NCBI RefSeq assembly: GCF_900302465.1
Contig: NZ_OMOR01000001.1
Location: 682,001 to 746,000 of the forward strand
Length of the DNA: 64,000 nt
Direction: 5' to 3'
Source: Ascidiaceihabitans donghaensis
GTDB lineage: Bacteria; Pseudomonadota; Alphaproteobacteria; Rhodobacterales; Rhodobacteraceae
The translations under genes and the position numbers were made by a program. The notes beneath the pieces were generated by a model that was given only the letters and a program-made list of their open reading frames with translations, searched no databases and was not told the DNA's origin. Below, one piece after another: positions 9,503 to 57,759 of this stretch (the stretch's first letter is position 1; every line of letters begins with the position of its first letter).

Positions 9503-9577
9503 TGGGCGCAGTTGAGAATTTAATGAGATGAAACCGTAAGGTGTGGCTTGCCGCACCATGCCTCTGAGGAGATGATG

Positions 9578-11026
9578 ATGGACTTGATGAACGTAAGCTA
9601 TGACACGCAAATCCCCAACAATGTGGGCCTGTCCCAAGACAAGAAGGTTCTGAAAGCACTGGAGAAATGGCATCCCGGCTACATCAACTGGTGGAACGAT
9701 CTGATCCCGCAGAATTTTCAGGACAGCATGGTTTACTTGCGCACCGCCGTTTCCGTTGACCCCAAAGGCTGGGCCAAATTTGATTACGTGAAGATGCCGG
9801 AATACCGCTGGGGTGTTTTGCTGGCCCCTGCTGTCGAGGGCCGCACCATTCCCATGGGCGAGCACTACGGCGAACCTGCGTGGCAGGAGGTGCCGGGCGA
9901 GTATCGCAACATGCTCAAGCGTTTGATTGTTATTCAAGGCGACACGGAGCCGGGCTCTGTTGAGCAGCAGCGCTTTCTGGGTCTGACCGCCCCGTCGCTG
10001 TATGACATGCGCAACCTGTTTCAGGTCAATGTCGAGGAAGGCCGTCACCTGTGGGCAATGGTCTATTTGCTGCAAAAGTACTTTGGCAAAGACGGTCGTG
10101 AAGAGGCCGATGACATGTTGGTCCGTTCTTCCGGATCCGACGATGCCCCCCGCATGTTGGGCGCGTTCAATGAAGAAACGCCTGATTGGCTATCGTTTTT
10201 CATGTTCACCTATTTCACCGACCGCGACGGTAAAATGCAGCTTGAAAGCCTTGCCCAGTCTGGCTTTGATCCTTTGTCTCGCACCTGCCGTTTCATGCTG
10301 ACCGAAGAAGCCCACCATATGTTTGTTGGTGAAACCGGCGTTGGCCGCACCATTCAAGCAACGCTGGAAGCGATGGCTGCCAATGGTATCACCGACCCCT
10401 ATGACATCAACAAAATCCGTGACTTAGGCGTCATCGACCTGCCGACTATCCAGAAAAAGCTGAACCTGCACTACACCCTGAGCCTCGATCTGTTTGGCCA
10501 AGAGGTCAGCACCAACGCTGCCAACGCTTACAATTCCGGCATCAAGGGCCGCTACATGGAGCAGCGCATTGATGATGACCATAAGCTGCACAATGACACC
10601 TATGCTGTGACCTCGATTGTCGATGGCAAGATTCTGACCGAAGATGTCCCCGCCCTGACCGCCATCAACATGCGCCTGCGCGACGACTATGTGCGCGATG
10701 CCTCTGGCGGTGTCGGGCGTTGGAACAAACTGATCGCAAAGTCGGGCGTGGAATTTGCGTTCAAAATGCCACATGAAGGCTTCCACCGCCAGATTGGCGT
10801 GTTTTCCTCTGTAGCGGTTGATCCCGACGGCAACATCATGTCGACAGACGAATGGACCAAGCGCCAACATGAATGGCTGCCCACCAAAGCGGATGGCGAT
10901 TTCATCACATCGCTGATGAAGCCCTGCTTTGAGCCCGGCAAATACGCGACATGGATCGCACCCCCGAAGGTTGGCATCGACAACAAGCCCGGCGATTTCG
11001 AATATGTAAAGTTGCATATGGCATGA
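9578..11026 (+). CDS. boxB: Benzoyl-CoA 2,3-epoxidase, diiron subunit
   Basis: The oxygenase component that epoxidises benzoyl-CoA with O2 and electrons from BoxA. It is about 482 residues and has the diiron ExxH pairs VEEGRHLW near residue 153 and TEEAHHMFVGETG near residue 242, with glutamates upstream completing the four-helix site. The N-terminus IPNNVGLSQDKK and WWNDLIPQNFQ are typical BoxB. The sequence has ATG at 9572, 9575, 9578 and 9587. GAGGAG at 9566-9571 best serves 9578 (6-base spacing). Its ATGA overlap with boxA fits stoichiometric synthesis of the two components. Confidence 0.95.
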   Translation: MDLMNVSYDTQIPNNVGLSQDKKVLKALEKWHPGYINWWNDLIPQNFQDSMVYLRTAVSVDPKGWAKFDYVKMPEYRWGVLLAPAVEGRTIPMGEHYGEPAWQEVPGEYRNMLKRLIVIQGDTEPGSVEQQRFLGLTAPSLYDMRNLFQVNVEEGRHLWAMVYLLQKYFGKDGREEADDMLVRSSGSDDAPRMLGAFNEETPDWLSFFMFTYFTDRDGKMQLESLAQSGFDPLSRTCRFMLTEEAHHMFVGETGVGRTIQATLEAMAANGITDPYDINKIRDLGVIDLPTIQKKLNLHYTLSLDLFGQEVSTNAANAYNSGIKGRYMEQRIDDDHKLHNDTYAVTSIVDGKILTEDVPALTAINMRLRDDYVRDASGGVGRWNKLIAKSGVEFAFKMPHEGFHRQIGVFSSVAVDPDGNIMSTDEWTKRQHEWLPTKADGDFITSLMKPCFEPGKYATWIAPPKVGIDNKPGDFEYVKLHMA

Positions 11027-12219
11027 CCCACCCCACGCCTTTCAAACAACACCTGATCGACCCGGAAATTTGCATCCGCTGTTACACGTGCGAAATGACG
11101 TGCCCGATAGGGGCGATCACCCACAACGACGACAATGTGGTTGTGGATGCCGACAAATGCAATTTTTGCATGGACTGCATCCCGGTTTGTCCAACGGGGT
11201 CAATCGACGAATGGCGGGTGGTCGATACACCCTATTCTTTGGACGCACAGTTCGAATGGGAAGAGCTGCCCGTTCAAGAAGACATCGCCCCGGCGCAGGG
11301 CACGGGCGACGGCGATGGCACGGATGATGTGATTGCCCGGCTTTTGGCGGAAGCACACGCAGGTGCCGGTGGTAAAGCCAAAGCACCGGCAACTGCGTCT
11401 AAACCAACTATCAACATGTACACATTGGGCAAACCTGCGACCGCCACAGTGCAGGGCAACTACCGTCTGACCGAAGAAGACAGCGACGGGGATGTGCGCC
11501 ATATTATTCTGGATTTGGGATCGCTGCCGTTCCCTGTGTTGGAAGGGCAAAGCGTGGGTGTCATAGCGCCCGGTACCGACGCGCAAGGCAATCCGCATTT
11601 GCCCCGACTATATTCTGTGTCCAGCCCAAGGGATGGTGAGCGGCCCGGCTACAACAATTTGTCTTTGACGGTGAAGCGCGAAGACGACGGCCTGTGTTCA
11701 AATTTCCTATGTGATTTGTCCAAAGGCGACACCGTGCAAATCACAGGGCCATTCGGGGCGACATTTCTTTTGCCATCCGATCCGCAGGCACAGGTTTTGA
11801 TGATATGCACAGGAACCGGATCCGCCCCGTTTCGCGCCATGACAATGCACAGACAGCGTGAAATGCCATCGGTTACAGGGGCTTTGTCACTGGTGTTTGG
11901 TGCCCGCAGTCCGCGGGATTTACCCTATTTTGGACCACTGAAAAAGGTGCCTGACAGCTTCTTGCAAAAGTCTTTTGCCTTCAGCCGAATGGGCGATGCC
12001 CCGAAAGTATATGTGCAGGATAAACTACGCGAGAATATGGATGATATCGCAGCTTTACTGTCCCATCCGAAAGGTCACATTTACATTTGCGGATTAAAGG
12101 CGATGGAAGCTGGTGTTGAGGAAGCACTGGGCGATATTTCCAGACAAGCCGGATTTGACTGGACTGAAAAACGCGATGAAATGCGTGACAACGGGCGGTA
12201 TCACGTCGAAACATACTAG
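11023..12219 (+). CDS. boxA: Benzoyl-CoA 2,3-epoxidase, reductase subunit
   Basis: A 398-residue iron-sulfur flavoprotein that passes NADPH electrons to BoxB. Two [4Fe-4S] motifs open the protein: Cys17, 20, 23, 27 and Cys46, 49, 52, 56. A low-complexity alanine/glycine/lysine linker (about 100-128) leads to a ferredoxin-NADP reductase module with the FAD motif LPRLYSVSS and NADP motif ICTGTGSAPFRA, ending NGRYHVETY. The ATG overlaps the boxB stop; a longer in-frame start at 10951 lies inside boxB and is rejected. A hairpin with T-run follows the stop. Confidence 0.95.
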   Translation: MTHPTPFKQHLIDPEICIRCYTCEMTCPIGAITHNDDNVVVDADKCNFCMDCIPVCPTGSIDEWRVVDTPYSLDAQFEWEELPVQEDIAPAQGTGDGDGTDDVIARLLAEAHAGAGGKAKAPATASKPTINMYTLGKPATATVQGNYRLTEEDSDGDVRHIILDLGSLPFPVLEGQSVGVIAPGTDAQGNPHLPRLYSVSSPRDGERPGYNNLSLTVKREDDGLCSNFLCDLSKGDTVQITGPFGATFLLPSDPQAQVLMICTGTGSAPFRAMTMHRQREMPSVTGALSLVFGARSPRDLPYFGPLKKVPDSFLQKSFAFSRMGDAPKVYVQDKLRENMDDIAALLSHPKGHIYICGLKAMEAGVEEALGDISRQAGFDWTEKRDEMRDNGRYHVETY

Positions 12220-45099: not shown

Positions 45100-45232
45100 G
45101 CGCGGGCAACTCCGGACACGTAGATGGTCGCGTGTCGACAAAAACTATGTCGGAAAGTGATTGAGCCTGCAGCCCATCTGTTGCTAGGTCTGTGACCAAG
45201 TGCGCGATGTCGCGTGCATGGGGGTACAGTAC

Positions 45233-46486
45233 ATGCGTTTTTCCGGCCTGCGGGTTCTGAAAGAGGGATTGACCGGCAACAAGGGGTGGAAACCCCATTG
45301 GCGTGATCCTCAGCCGAAATCCGAATATGATGTGATCATCATCGGAGGAGGGGGGCACGGTCTAGCGACAGCCCATTATCTGGCATCCCAGCATGGCATC
45401 ACCAATGTGGCCGTTTTGGAAAAAGGCTATATCGGCGGCGGGAATGTCGGGCGTAACACAACCATTGTACGCGCCAATTACGGCCTGCCGGGCAACTCGG
45501 AATTTTACAGTCATTCGTTGAATCTATGGGAAGGTCTGGAAGAGGACCTGAACTACAATGTGATGCATTCGCAGCGTGGCATCATTAATCTGTTCAACTC
45601 TGACGGAGCGCGGGATGCGGCGGCGCGCCGTGGCAACCAGATGATATCCCAAGGTGACGATGCTGTGTTGATGGACAACGCGGCTGTGCGCAAAATGATC
45701 CCCTATTTGAATTTTGATCAGACACGGTTCCCGATTTACGGCGGTTTGTATCATCCGCGTGGCGGCACTGCGCGTCACGATGCTGTGGCTTGGGGATTTG
45801 CGCGTGCAGCAGATCAGCGCGGTGTTGATCTTATTCAGCAGTGTGAAGTCACAGGTATTGATATCGTCGATGGCAAGGTTTGTGGGGTTCAGACCACACG
45901 CGGCCCGATCCGTGCCAAAAAAATCGGCATGGCTGCGGCGGGACGTTCTAGCCAGGTGGCCGCTATGGCGGGCATGCGATTGCCTATCGAAAGCCACGTG
46001 CTTCAGGCCTTTGTCACAGAAGGGCTGAAACCCTGCATTGATACTGTCATCACCTACCCGATGGGCCATTTTTATATCAGCCAGTCTGACAAAGGCGGTT
46101 TGGTATTTGGGGGGGCATTGGATTACTATTCCAGCTATGCCGCGCGGGGTAATTTGCCCATGGCAGAACACGTCATTGAAAACGCCATGACCTTGATGCC
46201 CATGATCACCAAAGCCCGGGTTCTTAGGTCGTGGGGCGGCATTATGGATATGTCTTTTGATGGCTCACCGATCATCGACAAAACCCACATTGACGGCCTG
46301 TATCTGAATTGTGGCTGGTGTTACGGGGGCTTCAAAGCCACGCCTGGATCTGGTCATGTGTTTGCGCATTTGATCGCGACGGATCGTCCCCACAAGGCCG
46401 CTGCGGCACATCGTCTGGACCGCTTTCGCACGGGGCGTGGCATCATGGATGAAGAGGCCACCGGGTCTCAGCACAATTTGCATTGA
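45233..46486 (+). CDS. soxB: Sarcosine oxidase subunit beta
   Basis: A 417-residue flavoprotein. With SoxA, SoxD and SoxG it oxidatively demethylates sarcosine to glycine, passing the methyl group to tetrahydrofolate. The FAD loop is IIIGGGGHGLATA at residues 36-48, and HPRGGTARHDAVAWG near residue 172 contains the histidine that carries covalent FMN. GWCYGGFKATPGSG near the C-terminus is typical. I chose ATG at 45233, after GGGGG; a start at 45200 adds eleven unrelated residues. N-methylglutamate dehydrogenase is related, but no gmaS or mgs genes are present. Confidence 0.93.
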   Translation: MRFSGLRVLKEGLTGNKGWKPHWRDPQPKSEYDVIIIGGGGHGLATAHYLASQHGITNVAVLEKGYIGGGNVGRNTTIVRANYGLPGNSEFYSHSLNLWEGLEEDLNYNVMHSQRGIINLFNSDGARDAAARRGNQMISQGDDAVLMDNAAVRKMIPYLNFDQTRFPIYGGLYHPRGGTARHDAVAWGFARAADQRGVDLIQQCEVTGIDIVDGKVCGVQTTRGPIRAKKIGMAAAGRSSQVAAMAGMRLPIESHVLQAFVTEGLKPCIDTVITYPMGHFYISQSDKGGLVFGGALDYYSSYAARGNLPMAEHVIENAMTLMPMITKARVLRSWGGIMDMSFDGSPIIDKTHIDGLYLNCGWCYGGFKATPGSGHVFAHLIATDRPHKAAAAHRLDRFRTGRGIMDEEATGSQHNLH

Positions 46487-46498
46487 GGATGTTTGCGA

Positions 46499-46545
46499 TG
46501 TGGGGAGCCTCCGGCGAGGATGTTTTTAGGAAAATGAATGAAGGG
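46499..46545 (+). repeat. Rhodobacteraceae-type intergenic repeat, one copy
   Basis: The stretch GGGGAGCCTCCGGCGAGGA followed by a T-rich TGTTTTTAGGAAAATGAA tail closely resembles a short repeat I recall scattered between genes in Rhodobacteraceae genomes (GAGCCTCCGGCGGG then TATTTTTGG). It lies in the 85-base gap between soxB and soxD. An internal duplication GAGGATGTTT occurs at its start. I see no second full copy in the window. Confidence 0.5.
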
Positions 46546-46571
46546 CGTGTGCTCTTTTTAGGAGAGACCTG

Positions 46572-46838
46572 ATGCGGTTGCCTTGTCCATTGTGTGGTAC
46601 GCGTGATTTGCGCGAATTCTATTGTCAGGGGACGGCGTTGCCGCGACCGGCATCAGATGCGGATCAGGCGGCTTGGGCGGACTACGTTCATTTGCGTGAT
46701 AACTTGCCCGGCGAGGTGCAAGAGTTCTGGCATCACACCCAAGGGTGTGGCGCTTGGCTTGTGGTCACCCGCAACACTGTGTCCCATGAAATATTGGATG
46801 CAAAGCTGGCGGTGGACCGCAAGGAGACTGCGCCATGA
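46572..46838 (+). CDS. soxD: Sarcosine oxidase subunit delta
   Basis: An 88-residue zinc-binding subunit. Likely ligands are Cys5 and Cys8 (CPLC), His54 and Cys59 (HHTQGCGAW). The TTTTTAGGAGAG stretch upstream is a good ribosome site. The stop overlaps soxA by ATGA. The subunit stabilises the alpha subunit in the tetramer. Confidence 0.94.
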   Translation: MRLPCPLCGTRDLREFYCQGTALPRPASDADQAAWADYVHLRDNLPGEVQEFWHHTQGCGAWLVVTRNTVSHEILDAKLAVDRKETAP

Positions 46839-49753
46839 GAATTGCAGGGAAAGGTCGCGTTGATCGCAGTAAGCCCGTTTCATTCACCTTCGATGGCAAC
46901 AGCTATCGCGGGTTTCAGGGGGATACGTTGGCGTCGGCATTGCTGGCCAATGATGTCCGTTTGGTCGCCCGATCCTTCAAATACCACCGCCCTCGCGGAA
47001 TTTTGACAGCCGGCAGTGAAGAACCCAATGCCCTTGTGACGGTGGGCGCTGCGGGCCATACAGACCCGAATGTTCGCGCCACTGTTCAAGAGCTGTACGA
47101 AGGTTTGCAGGCCCGCTCACAAAACGCATGGCCATCGCTTGAATTTGATGTGATGGCCATCAACGATATTGCGGCGCCGTTTTTGGGTGCCGGATTTTAC
47201 TACAAAACCTTCATGTGGCCGCGCGCTTTCTGGGAACGTGTCTATGAGCCAATTATTCGCCGCGCTGCCGGTCTGGGTGCTTTGAGCGGTGAAGACAATG
47301 CCGACACCTATGAACGCGCCTTCGCCCATTGTGACGTGTTGGTCATTGGGGCGGGGCCTGCCGGTTTAATGGCGGCTTTGACTGCTGCACAGGCCGGTGC
47401 CGATGTCATTTTGGCCGATGAAGATTCTGTAATGGGAGGCCGCCTGAACGCCGAGACCTTGCAGGTTGATGGTCAGCCAGGCGCCGATTGGGCTGCAAGC
47501 GTCGTGGCGCAGTTGGCGGCGATGGACAATGTGCGATTGATGCGCCGCACCACCGTAACGGGTGCCTACGATCAAGGCACCTTTGGCGCATTGGAACGTG
47601 TCAATCACCACACGTCTTTGCGTGATGGAAAAGCCCCGATTGAGACATTCTGGCGGATCGCTGCCAAACACGCCATCTTGTGCGCGGGCGCCCTTGAGCG
47701 CCCCGTAGCGTTCCAAAACAACGACCGTCCGGGCATTATGACGGCAGGGGCGGTGCGGGCCTATCTGAACCGATGGGGCGTGGCGCCGGGCAAGGCGGTG
47801 ACTGTATTTGCCAATAACGATGATGCGCACCGCACAGCCGTTGATTTGATGGACGCAGGTGTTCATGTGGCCGCTGTCATCGACAGCCGCACCCAAGCTG
47901 AAGCGCGTGGCGATTACCACCTGATACGAGGGGCCCATGTGTCCGGAACAAGCGGGCGCAAGTTGCTGGAAAGCATCACGGTGCGCTCGGCCTCCGGAAC
48001 TGAAAACATCGCCACGGATTGTTTGGCGATGTCAGGCGGGTGGAATCCGACGGTGCATATGACCTGTCACATGAACGGGCGACCAACGTGGGATGCCAGT
48101 ATTGCAAGCTTTGTGCCGACACCGGATGCCGTGCCGGGGCTGGTGGCAGCCGGTGCGTGCAACGGTGATTTTTCCACGGCGGCCTGTTTGCGTAGCGGGG
48201 CACAGGCAGCGGCGGATATTTTGAGCTGTGCGGCGGCGGATGTTCCCGACGCCGATGACAGCGCCTACGCGTTAGAGCCGCTTTGGGCCGTCCCCGGAAA
48301 GGGGCGGGCGTGGCTTGATTTTCAGAACGATGTGTCTGTGAAGGATGTAAAGCAAGCGGCTGTCGAAAACTTCCGTTCGGTCGAGCATATGAAACGTTAC
48401 ACGACCCAAGGTATGGCGACCGATCAGGGTAAAAACTCTAACGTTCAGGCTTTGGCAATTTTGGCGGATGCCACAGGGCGCGGTATTCCCGAAACTGGCA
48501 CCACGACATTCCGTCCGCCTTATTCCCCTGTGGCCATCGCGGCGTATGGCGCGGGGGCAGAGGGCAAAGGTTTTATGCCGGAACGCTTTACCACCAGCCA
48601 TGCCGCGACAGTAGATCGCAACGCGCCGATGATTGAGGCGGGTCTTTGGTACCGGCCCAGTTATTTCCCTATCACCGGCGAAACCAACTGGCGGCAATCA
48701 TGTGACCGTGAGGTTGGCTATGTTCGTGAAACTGTTGGCGTGTGTGATGTGTCCACTTTGGGCAAGATCGACATTCAGGGCCCCGATGCGGCGGCGCTGT
48801 TGGATTATGTTTACACCAACATGTTTTCGACCCTGAAGGTCGGGCGCACGCGCTATGGCTTGATGCTGCGCGAAGACGGTCACGTCATGGATGATGGCAC
48901 CACCGCGCGATTGGGTGAACATCACTATGTCATGACCACGACCACAGCTGCGGCGGGCGACGTCATGCGTCATCTGGAATTTGTGACGCAAGTGGTGCGC
49001 CCCGACTGGGATGTGCGTCTTGCGTCCGTGACCGAACAATGGGCGCAGTTTGCCGTTGCGGGTCCACAGGCGCGTGCCCTTTTAAACGGTGTTCTGGATG
49101 TGCCAATCGACAACGAAAGCTGGCCATTTATGGCCTGCGGCGCAGTGTCCGTTGGCGGAGTGCAGGGGCGGTTGTTCCGCATATCGTTTTCTGGAGAGCA
49201 TGCTTACGAGATTGCTGTGCCTTCGCGTTATGGTGATGCGTTGTTCCGCGAATTGGTCGGACGGTCCGAGGCGCTGGGTGGCGGACCTTACGGGATGGAA
49301 GCATTGAATGTTCTGCGTATCGAAAAAGGCTTTATCACGCATGCCGAAATCCATGGACGTGTGACAGCCTTTGATGTCGGCATGGGGCGGATGGTCAGCG
49401 TAAAGAAAGAGTGCCTTGGCAAGGTTATGGCGCACCGCGAGGGGCTTCTCGACGAAGACCGCGAACAAATGATGGGCTTCAAGCCTGTCGGAGCCGTCAA
49501 ACAGCTTACGGCTGGGGCACATCTGTATGAAGAGGATGCAGAGCCCATCGCCCCACATGGACTTGGATATCTGACCTCGGTCGCTTTCTCGCCTACTATG
49601 GGGCATTATCTGGCGCTTGGTTTTGTGCGTGGTGGTGCTTTGCGGAAAGGAGATCGCTTGAAAATGGTAGATGCGGTGCGCGGCATCGAAACTGTGGTCG
49701 AAGTCTGCCATCCGGTGTTTTTTGATCAAGAGGGGGAGCGGGCGCGTGGTTGA
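46835..49753 (+). CDS. soxA: Sarcosine oxidase subunit alpha
   Basis: A 972-residue subunit. The N-terminal 100 residues form a ferredoxin-like region (FTFDGNSYRGFQGDTLASA) without cysteines. Next is a pyridine-nucleotide oxidoreductase module with VLVIGAGPAGLMAALTAA near 168 that binds NAD+. The C-terminal 380 residues form a GcvT-like aminomethyl/folate domain (VCDVSTLGKIDIQGPDA, GMEALNVLRIEKGFI). Length is normal (about 970-1000). It is coupled to soxD and overlaps soxG by 8 bases. Confidence 0.95.
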   Translation: MRIAGKGRVDRSKPVSFTFDGNSYRGFQGDTLASALLANDVRLVARSFKYHRPRGILTAGSEEPNALVTVGAAGHTDPNVRATVQELYEGLQARSQNAWPSLEFDVMAINDIAAPFLGAGFYYKTFMWPRAFWERVYEPIIRRAAGLGALSGEDNADTYERAFAHCDVLVIGAGPAGLMAALTAAQAGADVILADEDSVMGGRLNAETLQVDGQPGADWAASVVAQLAAMDNVRLMRRTTVTGAYDQGTFGALERVNHHTSLRDGKAPIETFWRIAAKHAILCAGALERPVAFQNNDRPGIMTAGAVRAYLNRWGVAPGKAVTVFANNDDAHRTAVDLMDAGVHVAAVIDSRTQAEARGDYHLIRGAHVSGTSGRKLLESITVRSASGTENIATDCLAMSGGWNPTVHMTCHMNGRPTWDASIASFVPTPDAVPGLVAAGACNGDFSTAACLRSGAQAAADILSCAAADVPDADDSAYALEPLWAVPGKGRAWLDFQNDVSVKDVKQAAVENFRSVEHMKRYTTQGMATDQGKNSNVQALAILADATGRGIPETGTTTFRPPYSPVAIAAYGAGAEGKGFMPERFTTSHAATVDRNAPMIEAGLWYRPSYFPITGETNWRQSCDREVGYVRETVGVCDVSTLGKIDIQGPDAAALLDYVYTNMFSTLKVGRTRYGLMLREDGHVMDDGTTARLGEHHYVMTTTTAAAGDVMRHLEFVTQVVRPDWDVRLASVTEQWAQFAVAGPQARALLNGVLDVPIDNESWPFMACGAVSVGGVQGRLFRISFSGEHAYEIAVPSRYGDALFRELVGRSEALGGGPYGMEALNVLRIEKGFITHAEIHGRVTAFDVGMGRMVSVKKECLGKVMAHREGLLDEDREQMMGFKPVGAVKQLTAGAHLYEEDAEPIAPHGLGYLTSVAFSPTMGHYLALGFVRGGALRKGDRLKMVDAVRGIETVVEVCHPVFFDQEGERARG

Positions 49754-50291
49754 TTTGAAACCGAAAACACCGATGGATGGTGTGGTGCCTATCACAATAG
49801 GTGCGATGACCTTGCGCGAAGTGTCTGTGGAGTGCCTGACGTCTCTCGCACCTTACAAGGGTCAGACCAAAGCGGTGTCCGATGCGCTGAAAGTGGCGCA
49901 CGGCATGGCCTTTCCCGCCCCCAACCGTGCAACTGGCAAAGACGGTGCACGTGCGATCTGGTTTGGACGTGAACAAGCGGTGTTGCTGGGACCAGAGCCC
50001 GATGCAGGGTTGGCGCGCCTGTGTGCCGTCACAGATCAGTCGGATGCTTGGGCGGTGGTCGAGCTGTCGGGTGCGGCTGCCCGTGACGTCCTTGCGCGCC
50101 TTACGCCGATAGATATGCGTGACAGCCAATTCAAACGCGGGCACACCGCCCGCACCGACATCATGCATGTGGCCGGATCTATTACGCGCATCGGTGTCGA
50201 CAGCTTTTTGATACTGGTGTTCCGGTCCATGGCGCAGACGTTACTGCACGATTTGGAAAAGGCCATGGCAGGTGTCGCGTCGCGCGGATAA
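49746..50291 (+). CDS. soxG: Sarcosine oxidase subunit gamma
   Basis: A 181-residue subunit with a GcvT/YgfZ-like fold, completing the heterotetramer. Features are VTDQSDAWAVVELSG and LTPIDMRDSQFKRGHTARTDIMH in part (key residues R, H, H), then ITRIGVDSFLILVFRS. I chose GTG at 49746, which has AGGGGGAG seven bases upstream and lies in the soxA end. No glyA or folate genes follow, unlike some sox operons. Confidence 0.92.
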   Translation: MVDLKPKTPMDGVVPITIGAMTLREVSVECLTSLAPYKGQTKAVSDALKVAHGMAFPAPNRATGKDGARAIWFGREQAVLLGPEPDAGLARLCAVTDQSDAWAVVELSGAAARDVLARLTPIDMRDSQFKRGHTARTDIMHVAGSITRIGVDSFLILVFRSMAQTLLHDLEKAMAGVASRG

Positions 50292-52838: not shown

Positions 52839-54824
<1,986 letters not shown>

Positions 54825-54902: not shown

Positions 54903-55352
54903 ATGGAAAACCCGCGCTCTACCCTTCCTGATGCTTTGGCTGTGGAACTGGCCGGCAGCGACCTGATCGTCTTTGATGCAGAATGCGTTTTGTGCTCCGG
55001 CTTTTTCCGCTTCATGTATCGACGCAATGACTCATTCAATTTTGCGACAGCACAGTCGCCGTTGGGGCAACGGCTTTATGCGGCGCTTAATCTGGCGCTT
55101 ACGGATTTCGAAACCAATCTGGTGATTGTAGACGGGCAAATCCATCAGGAGCTGGACGCCTTTTCGATGGCTATGCAGGAATTGAATTGGCCTTGGAAAG
55201 CGTTGGGTGTCGCACGTTTTCTGCCTGCTTGGATCAAATCCCCCCTGTACAAAACCATACGCCGCAACAGATTTCGGGTGTTCGGGCGGTACGACACCTG
55301 CATGGTTCCAGATGCTGAACTGCGCGCACGGTTTTTGAAAAACGGGTTTTGA
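54903..55352 (+). CDS. DCC-family thiol-disulfide oxidoreductase
   Basis: A 149-residue DUF393 protein. The DCC motif is Asp25-x-x-Cys28-x-x-Cys31 in FDAECVLCSGFF, placed after the first beta strand as in thioredoxin-like folds. The remainder (SPLGQRLYAALNLAL, VARFLPAWIKSPLYKTI) is typical of the family. The redox partner is unknown. I chose ATG at 54903; a TTG six codons earlier is possible. It directly follows the rpoD terminator. Confidence 0.88.
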   Translation: MENPRSTLPDALAVELAGSDLIVFDAECVLCSGFFRFMYRRNDSFNFATAQSPLGQRLYAALNLALTDFETNLVIVDGQIHQELDAFSMAMQELNWPWKALGVARFLPAWIKSPLYKTIRRNRFRVFGRYDTCMVPDAELRARFLKNGF

Positions 55353-55422: not shown

Positions 55423-55827
55423 ATGCCGTTAAGATACCTAGCTGCTGCAATACTTGCCCTTGCCCCTCTGAATGCGGGGGCGAACGGGTTTTATTTTGAC
55501 CCCGGCCTGACAGTGAACCCCGTGTCCGCGACCCAGTTTGAAGTCATTGAAGCCCGCGGAGAGGGGGCGCGTGGCATGTGGTGTGCCGCCGCGCGGTATG
55601 CTGTCTATACGTTGGGTCAGGACAAAGGGCGCCTTTATGTGGATACGCCGCGCGGCCCAAGCGTGACCCAAAATTCTGGAAAGGGTGTCGTGTTCACCAC
55701 GCAGGCGCCAGAAAACCCAACGCAAAGTGTGTCTGTGACAGTGCGTCGCGCCGGTGCCAGTTTGCCGGTCATCCATGCGCTGCAGTTTTGCCGCGATTAC
55801 GATGTATTTCCGGACAACAATTTTTAA
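55423..55827 (+). CDS. Secreted two-cysteine protein, first of three tandem paralogues
   Basis: A 134-residue protein with a signal peptide (residues 1-20). The mature part has Cys54 in GARGMWCAAARYA and Cys123 in LQFCRDYD. Between them come YVDTPRG and GKGVVFTT. The same plan recurs in the next two genes. I do not recognise a named family; a small disulfide-bonded periplasmic domain is likely. The first start with a normal signal peptide is ATG 55423. Confidence 0.8.
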   Translation: MPLRYLAAAILALAPLNAGANGFYFDPGLTVNPVSATQFEVIEARGEGARGMWCAAARYAVYTLGQDKGRLYVDTPRGPSVTQNSGKGVVFTTQAPENPTQSVSVTVRRAGASLPVIHALQFCRDYDVFPDNNF

Positions 55828-55847
55828 ACTTCGAAAGGTCTAAACAA

Positions 55848-56243
55848 ATGAAGACAGTTCTATCAGTTCTCATCGCGACAGCGCTTTTTGCCGTTCCCGT
55901 TCAGGCCCAGACGTTTCGGGCCGAAAACCGCGTGGTGGTGACACCCGCGCAAGGCAACACCTTCAGTATTTCCAATGGCGAAGGCCAAGGGGCGCGCGGG
56001 ATGTGGTGTGCCGCCTCTGATTACGCACAGGATGTTTTGGGGGCGCGGGGCAGTGAACGCCTTGTCGTGGATCAAGCACGCACTTCGAAACGCGGTCCGG
56101 TGGTGTTCGCGCTCAAAGGCCGTGATGGCAGCAGTGGATCGGTTTTGATCGTTGGCAGTTCGTTGCGCAGCGTTGGCAGCAGCTTGTCTGTTAACCACGC
56201 CTATCAATTCTGCCACGATGCCCGGATTATTAACTCGCGGTAA
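55848..56243 (+). CDS. Secreted two-cysteine protein, second of three tandem paralogues
   Basis: A 131-residue protein with a signal peptide (cleavage after VQA, residue 20). Cys54 lies in GARGMWCAASDYA, identical over the first eight residues to the upstream paralogue, and Cys122 in YQFCHDAR. The middle segment has RGPVVFALKG. The ATG is 20 bases after the first gene, with AAAGG upstream. A longer frame opening inside the first gene is not credible. Confidence 0.8.
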   Translation: MKTVLSVLIATALFAVPVQAQTFRAENRVVVTPAQGNTFSISNGEGQGARGMWCAASDYAQDVLGARGSERLVVDQARTSKRGPVVFALKGRDGSSGSVLIVGSSLRSVGSSLSVNHAYQFCHDARIINSR

Positions 56244-56311
56244 CAGGTGCGGGAACTGTAGCGTGACTTTTGCAAAGGATGCCCTAACTCATCGCGCAGG
56301 AGGCATTCAGC

Positions 56312-56710
56312 ATGAGATATATTCTGTTGGTACTGGCGATGAGCCCTGCAATGGGGCTTGCCGCGACTGTGGGTGAAGAAAAAAGGTTTCAGATCAATGC
56401 GTTGAACGCATCTGACTTTGAGGTCATTCAAGGCCAGAATATGGCTGCCGCAGAGTTTTGGTGTGCTGCCGCGAGCTATATTGAAAACCGTCAGGGCCTG
56501 CCTGAGACCACACGCATCTATGTGCGCAGCCCGCGGGGGGCCGCCCGGACAGCGTCAGGTCGCAAAGGCGTTGTATTTACCACAAACGGCACTTCGGTGC
56601 CAAAGGTTGAAAACGGGCTGACGCTGAAAGTGGATGCGGTTGGCCTAAGCCGAACCTCAGCTGTTGCACGGCGGTACTGCCGGGACGCATTTACGCGGTC
56701 TACAAAGTAG
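56312..56710 (+). CDS. Secreted two-cysteine protein, third of three tandem paralogues
   Basis: A 132-residue protein with a signal peptide (cleavage after GLA, about residue 17). Cys51 lies in AAEFWCAAASYI and Cys123 in RRYCRDAF. IYVRSPRGA and RKGVVFTTN match the first paralogue more closely than the second. The ATG has GGAGG about 11 bases upstream. This gene is the most divergent around the first cysteine. Confidence 0.8.
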   Translation: MRYILLVLAMSPAMGLAATVGEEKRFQINALNASDFEVIQGQNMAAAEFWCAAASYIENRQGLPETTRIYVRSPRGAARTASGRKGVVFTTNGTSVPKVENGLTLKVDAVGLSRTSAVARRYCRDAFTRSTK

Positions 56711-56754
56711 CAGCGGCCTTGCGCCCGTTCGGCGTCGTGGACACAATGGGCGCT

Positions 56755-57168
56755 ATGCAAACCACCTTTGACGTGCCAACACAGGGCGCCGGCCTATACG
56801 AATTTACAGCAGACGTGGCCCGTTGGGTGCCACGCCGTGACGGGCTGTTGACGCTTATGGTGCAACATACGTCTGCGTCGCTGGTTATTCAGGAAAATGC
56901 CGATCCTGAAGTACAAACCGATCTACAGGCATTCTTTGCGCGGTTGGTGCCGCCTACGACAGATCCCTCCATGGCCTATCTTCAACACACTTACGAGGGG
57001 CCAGATGACATGCCTGCCCATATAAAAGCTGCAATGCTGCCTGTGTCGCTTGGCATTCCGGTCCAGAACGGTGTTTTGCGATTGGGAACATGGCAAGGCA
57101 TCTACCTTTTTGAACATCGCACGGCCCCGCATTTGCGCCGCATCGCCGCTTTTTTCGCCGGCAGCTAA
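56755..57168 (+). CDS. yjbQ: YjbQ (UPF0047) family protein
   Basis: A 137-residue protein of the YjbQ family, small trimers once linked to thiamin phosphate synthesis with no settled role. Signatures are LMVQHTSASLVIQENADPEV near residue 40, HTYEGPDDMPAHIKA near 83 and LGTWQGIYLFEHR near 110. Conserved histidines in these motifs form a metal-like site. ATG at 56755 begins MQTTFDV as in relatives; 56746 is also possible. No clear ribosome site for either. Confidence 0.88.
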   Translation: MQTTFDVPTQGAGLYEFTADVARWVPRRDGLLTLMVQHTSASLVIQENADPEVQTDLQAFFARLVPPTTDPSMAYLQHTYEGPDDMPAHIKAAMLPVSLGIPVQNGVLRLGTWQGIYLFEHRTAPHLRRIAAFFAGS

Positions 57169-57288: not shown

Positions 57289-57759
57289 ATGCGCTGCCCA
57301 TTTTGTGGAAATATTGATACTCAAGTAAAAGACAGTCGCCCAGCGGAGGATCACGTTTCGATCCGGCGGCGGCGGTTTTGCCCTGCATGTGGCGGGCGCT
57401 TCACCACCTATGAACGCGTGCAATTGCGCGATTTGGTTGTGATCAAAACCAATGGAAAACGCGAAGATTTTGATCGCGATAAACTGGAACGCTCCATCCG
57501 GATCTCCATGCAAAAGCGGCCAATCGATCCGGAACGGATTGATCAGATGATCTCGGGTATCGTGCGGCGCTTGGAAAGCATGGGCGAAACAGACATCGGG
57601 TCCAAGCAAATCGGCGAGATCGTGATGGAAGCGCTGAACCGCATCGACACGGTCGCATATGTGCGTTTTGCAAGCGTCTACAAGAACTTTCAGGCGGCTG
57701 ACGACTTTGACAAGTTCGTCGCAGAACTGCGCCCACCTGAAACGTCCGCGGACGAGTGA
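57289..57759 (+). CDS. nrdR: Transcriptional repressor NrdR
   Basis: A 156-residue nucleotide-sensing repressor of ribonucleotide reductase genes. A zinc ribbon with Cys3, Cys6, Cys31 and Cys34 precedes an ATP-cone ([20 protein letters not shown], and [13 protein letters not shown] near the end). Length is standard. The stop overlaps ribD (GTGA), a common nrdR-ribD coupling. Confidence 0.96.

Follow-up and report, generated by a model that had tools for sequence, protein, structure and literature searches.

What are the three small genes that lie side by side at one site in the genome of Ascidiaceihabitans donghaensis, how old are they, and what might their products do? The stretch of DNA that we analyzed (the window) is 64,000 nucleotides long, and the genes, which we call A, B, and C, lie between homologues of what we take to be rpoD and nrdR (Table 1). 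The original prediction for this locus, which was made from the letters of the DNA, described three adjacent genes for proteins of 131-134 amino acids. Both the positions and the lengths are correct, and all three genes are on the same strand.

Table 1. Genes A, B, and C and their neighbors in the window (rpoD, yjbQ, and nrdR are the names that we presume for those genes)
Feature	Position	Strand	Remarks
rpoD homologue	52839..54824	+	Upstream anchor of the conserved site
DCC1-like thiol-disulfide oxidoreductase	54903..55352	+	PF04134, E 7e-20; start codon chosen by us
Copy A	55423..55827	+	134 aa; Cys54 and Cys123; signal-peptide-like start
Copy B	55848..56243	+	131 aa; Cys54 and Cys122
Copy C	56312..56710	+	132 aa; Cys51 and Cys123; C-terminus RDAFTRSTK
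yjbQ-type gene	56746..57168	+	Usual downstream neighbor; start codon chosen by us
nrdR homologue	57289..57759	+	Downstream anchor of the conserved site

Three homologous genes without a family name

We aligned the proteins locally, from residue 20 on, and compared each score to those from 1000 shuffles. The scores were 155 for A and B (z = 26), 148 for A and C (z = 26), and 88 for B and C (z = 12), and none of the 1000 shuffles reached the observed scores. When we searched the genome with A as a single sequence, we found B at E = 8e-14 and C at E = 5e-14. A profile with 49 rows matched A, B, and C at E = 3e-40, 2e-37, and 4e-38, respectively, with all three being rows of that profile. Each of the three has the features by which we define family membership: a match to the profile, both cysteines, and a tryptophan preceding the first cysteine. 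A, B, and C are clearly homologous, and their similarity, which had been predicted from shared motifs, is significant. Neither the search with A (at E ≤ 1) nor the 49-row profile found a fourth copy in this genome.

Most of the predicted plan of motifs is also shared. WCAA, (Y/V)V-x-x-(P/A)R, and (F/Y)C-x-D are found in all three proteins, but only B has an exact G-x-VVF (GPVVF), while A and C have KGVVF. The cysteines were expected to be about 70 residues apart, and they are 69 (A), 68 (B), and 72 (C) residues apart. By eye, each N-terminus has a positive n-region, a hydrophobic core, and an A-x-A-like site, so each reads as a signal peptide, as had been predicted. A scan for promoters and terminators gave site counts that were below the shuffle means.

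The original prediction knew no name for this family, and there is none in the libraries that we searched: profile searches gave no accepted match to a characterized family. Pfam has no match for A, B, or C, and the sole match in NCBIfam is a signal-peptide model, for B, below its cutoff. For five proteins, PHROGs gave one weak match (B, E = 0.25) and PADLOC found no defense gene. Among PDB sequences, A has no match and the 49-row profile has one at chance level (E = 0.64). When we searched Pfam with 49 relatives, 13 families came up at E ≤ 1, none of them in more than two members; the best of these, Arr-ms, matched 2 of the 49 and was under its cutoff. Going by listings and the openings of abstracts, no paper is recognizable as being about this two-cysteine family. 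Two scans of IMG/VR, the phage records, and the plasmid records, all of which reach close relatives only, contained no relatives, so we rejected an origin from a phage or plasmid.

A conserved site and old paralogues

We examined 52 loci from named relatives, mostly Sulfitobacter or Roseobacter, with 95 members of the family in total. (Because we built the query from A-type copies, it would not pick up a locus that lacks an A-like one.) There is one member at 17 of these loci, two at 27, and three at 8. In 46 of the 52, rpoD is upstream and nrdR is downstream, on the same strand. The six exceptions are L044, L050, L077, and L084, which have no visible rpoD; L063, which has no visible nrdR; and L094, which is rearranged. 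There is a yjbQ-type gene at 41 of the 52 loci and a DCC1-like gene at just 4; these neighbors were labeled by their similarity to the genes in the window, and only the DCC1-like label was tested at the level of domains. We also picked 20 divergent regions by hand. In 14 of these, the genes are flanked by rpoD and nrdR; in L128, only the nrdR side is present; and 5 are elsewhere. In most cases, these genes keep to one place next to what is apparently the gene for the main sigma factor, and yet they are nameless in the libraries searched.

Does the location hint at a function? The site between rpoD and nrdR lies among housekeeping genes and provides no functional link. At the five off-site loci (L130, L134, L135, L137, and L141), we scanned eight neighbors, which were a DUF302 protein (below cutoff), glutamate synthase, Hint, RTX, a fatty acid desaturase, an SDR, FUR, and an ABC transporter. 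There is no common theme among the eight, so we rejected inferring a function from them. In another divergent relative, a protein with a YbjN domain (L127:7481-7972; PF10722, E = 5e-16) is encoded between rpoD and a three-copy array.

Counting the copies in relatives had been suggested as a check, and it shows a tandem family with 1-5 copies per genome. In its own taxonomic family, 94 of 295 genomes match the 49-row profile, which corresponds to 93 of 294 sampled genera, or about one third. Within the genus, 5 of 12 genomes are positive, and several of the 12 are incomplete. A alone matches 41 of 121 genomes in a sample of the order. The 49-row profile matches just 4 of 385 genomes in a sample of the class and 9 of 398 in a sample of the phylum, and all of these belong to the same family as A. 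donghaensis; going by the handle numbers, some 380 of these 385 genomes probably come from other families. A broader profile (A6), at E ≤ 0.1, adds 20 genomes of the class from outside the family, with E values of 0.009-0.1. These matches cover no more than roughly half of the model, and we take them to be chance. In other words, A6 found nothing outside the family with a better E value than 0.009, and all of those matches are partial. The searches of the family, class, and phylum and with A6 scored 10-14 first-look candidates per genome, so they may overlook highly divergent members.

The three genes were originally thought to result from a tandem triplication. We built a tree of 96 rows from the domain alone (from residue 22 to the second cysteine, without the tail columns). 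C belongs to a clade of 14 rows (support 100/100) and B to a clade of 24 rows (support 100/95); the program warns that these bootstrap values are rough. Both clades are common to Sulfitobacter and other genera. C is also the last copy in the array in all 13 of the named relatives with a full-length C. Since the B and C clades extend across genera and C is always last, the paralogues are old: the triplet was inherited rather than produced by a recent local triplication, and B or C has been lost in places. The position in the array is a good but imperfect label for the paralogues, as first-place copies need 4 changes on the tree and second-place copies need 3. In an earlier tree, the second copies of L089, L091, L092, and L093 were outside the B clade, and the second copy of L044 grouped with A.

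All three copies are under purifying selection. After dropping pairs with identity outside of 60-97%, with fewer than 100 aligned codons, or with dS ≥ 3, the median dN/dS was 0.17 for first copies (42 pairs), 0.17 for second copies (14 pairs), and 0.15 for C (9 pairs).

Two relatives have arrays that are damaged or rearranged. The closest named relative, an Ascidiaceihabitans MAG (68%), has an A, B, C array (L043:6301-6850) with one in-frame stop in B, which may be a real loss or, indistinguishably, an assembly error. Another relative has an ORF of 92 amino acids (L086:6386-6661) in which the N-terminal half of a B-type protein is in frame with a C-type end (RDAFTRLTK). This chimera is probably due to a natural deletion between tandem copies.

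A conserved core and a tail that differs between copies

There were 202 distinct matches to the family, and we excluded five of these: two short matches without the cysteine pair (a piece of 103 amino acids and the B/C chimera) and three with over-long starts. The other 197 members are full-length. Counting from residue 25, each of them has two mature cysteines and no more, and the aligned columns for Cys54 and Cys123 are both 100% conserved. Other conserved columns are W53 (98%), F91 (97%), G111 (97%), A56 (95%), V41 (92%), and A119 (90%). The first motif had been expected to diverge between the copies; instead, with W at 98%, C at 100%, and A at 95% (n = 197), it is the most conserved part. 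What visibly sets the copies apart is the tail, which follows the second cysteine. No acidic, basic, or hydroxyl residue is conserved at 90% (the best is E40, at 84% of the 197). Across members, the cysteines are separated by 65-86 residues, and there is no CxxC motif.

Two mature cysteines in all 197 members, which is an even number and conserved together, is what would be expected for an exported protein with a disulfide bond, and the genome encodes DsbB (PF02600). A lipobox pattern occurs in 9 members, and we judged 6 of the 202 matches to be true lipoproteins, which supports a location in the envelope. Isoelectric points have a median of 8.8 and a 5th-95th percentile range of 5.1-10.3. This spread is too wide for us to claim that the proteins bind polyanions.

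Structure prediction had also been suggested as a check. AlphaFold2 gave confident cores for both of the proteins that we modeled: A (96 sequences) has a mean pLDDT of 84.3 and a pTM of 0.74, with the blocks from 31-120 at 91-98, and C (86 sequences) has a mean pLDDT of 87.5 and a pTM of 0.77. In the model of A, strands at 30-33 and 38-42 are followed by a helix that bears the WC (49-62), strands at 70-79 and 87-92, a short strand at 112-115, and a C-terminal helix. The elements of the C model follow one another as in A, but its last helix is longer. In both models, confidence is low for the tail (the last blocks are at 55-74), so the tail may be merely flexible. Foldseek found no match at E ≤ 0.001 in the PDB for either model, and none in BFVD for A. 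For such a small predicted domain, we view the missing PDB match as weak evidence of a new fold.

The tails are distinctive. Among 52 first copies, the tail has a median length of 11 residues and a mean charge of -1.6, and 18 end in F. A-type tails vary considerably. Second copies have a tail of 8 residues, and 16 of 28 end in R. The tail of C has 9 residues and is nearly fixed: among full-length copies from named relatives, it is RDAFTRSTK in 12 of 13 and RDAFTRATK in the other. The C copies were labeled by their tails, so this count is partly by construction, but the clade for C that we recovered without the tail columns is an independent check on the labels. The codons for the C tail differ at synonymous places among relatives, so the constraint acts on the protein. 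Tails sort imperfectly with bodies: one member (L097:1492-1899) looks A-type in its body and yet has a tail resembling that of C, RDTFSRTRR. It is an intermediate, a recombinant, or chance.

More broadly, F is unusually frequent as the last residue: it ends 48 of the 197 members, and 11 of 40 members that were chosen to be less than 42% alike. For comparison, 9 of 552 ORFs of at least 300 amino acids in the loci end in F (with orthologues repeated and frames unchecked), as do 3 of 59 ORFs in the window, and neither set of ORFs is a true background for secreted proteins. A C-terminal phenylalanine is the kind of end that is recognized by Deg-type PDZ domains or by the outer-membrane assembly machinery.

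What the proteins might do

We tentatively favor a non-catalytic exported envelope protein, pinned by a disulfide, whose tail contacts a partner specific to each copy (we put the probability of this at about 40%). A, B, and C, which are three old paralogues, would belong to a lineage-restricted group of Sec-exported envelope proteins. Each copy is predicted, from the models of A and C, to form one small alpha/beta domain (beta-beta-alpha-beta-beta...beta-alpha). The single pair of cysteines would form a disulfide between the first helix and the C-terminal segment. The role would be in binding or stabilizing rather than enzymatic, since the conserved residues are of the kind found in protein cores (W, C, A, F, G, and V) and none of a catalytic type reaches 90% conservation. 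The domain could then be a scaffold, with the tail leaving just after the second cysteine, and the tail, which differs between paralogues, would touch a periplasmic partner specific to that paralogue. The original prediction had likewise suggested different partners for the copies. Against this, the variable tails of the A-type copies make a weak case for a docking peptide. In sum, we infer that the proteins are exported to the periplasm, that their disulfide is structural, and that they choose their partners via the tail. The nearest known proteins are small periplasmic disulfide-bonded proteins in general, which are a kind and not a family; A, B, and C resemble them in their signal-peptide-like start, their two cysteines, their compact domain (predicted, about 110 residues), and their lack of conserved catalytic-type residues. 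This family has no accepted relative by sequence or fold in Pfam, NCBIfam, or the PDB. An old, ordered set of paralogues with copy-specific tails is a simple handle for finding binding partners.

A bolder version, which strikes us as distinctly improbable, is that the domain is a new small alpha/beta fold, a disulfide-pinned scaffold that displays, in the periplasm, a recognition peptide at its C-terminus. The peptide would be the nonapeptide RDAFTRSTK, nearly fixed, in C and would end in Phe in many others. With such an end, the family might regulate envelope quality control or be among its clients.

Alternatively, these might be general proteins for envelope stability or stress, with the copies being a dosage reserve and without copy-specific partners. 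The range of 1-5 copies, the low proportion of named-relative loci with three intact copies (8/52), and the in-frame B/C chimera would all fit, but B and C each form an old clade of their own, C is last in 13 of 13 relatives, and all three copies are under purifying selection, so we consider this somewhat unlikely. The cysteines might instead be redox-active, as a reversible switch or in thiol exchange, perhaps with the DCC1-like thiol-disulfide oxidoreductase that is encoded directly upstream. The cysteines are present in all 197 full-length members. However, they are 65-86 residues apart, with no CxxC, and the DCC gene is at just 4 of 52 named-relative loci. DCC1-like proteins, as far as is known, are cytoplasmic, while this family appears to be exported. 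A redox role is quite unlikely.

It is very improbable that these are small secreted enzymes of an unrecognized kind, such as relatives of the rifampin ADP-ribosyltransferase Arr (PF12120). Two of 49 members do have a weak match to PF12120 (at best 21.9 bits over 37 residues, E = 0.00021), but this score is below the curated Pfam cutoff of 25 bits, the match is a short stretch (36-37 residues) around the wording YIVEPRGPS, and the other 47 members have no match at E ≤ 1. Also, no polar residue is conserved at 90%, and there is no PDB match, either by sequence or, for the two models, by fold at E ≤ 0.001. What sets the two-cysteine family apart from Arr is its signal-peptide-like start and its two invariant cysteines, as well as the lack of a fold match at that threshold. 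Given a short sub-cutoff stretch in 2 of 49 members, we rejected an Arr-type ADP-ribosyltransferase. Finally, the similarity could be due to chance, or the ORFs might not be genes. Although no library that we searched has an accepted match to the family, the z scores of 12-26, the many genomes that carry the family, and a dN/dS of about 0.16 refute this, and its probability is virtually nil.

Elsewhere in the window, going by eye only, the ORFs at 9548-12219 resemble a benzoyl-CoA oxygenation pair, and the ORFs at 45200-50291 resemble a sarcosine oxidase cluster.
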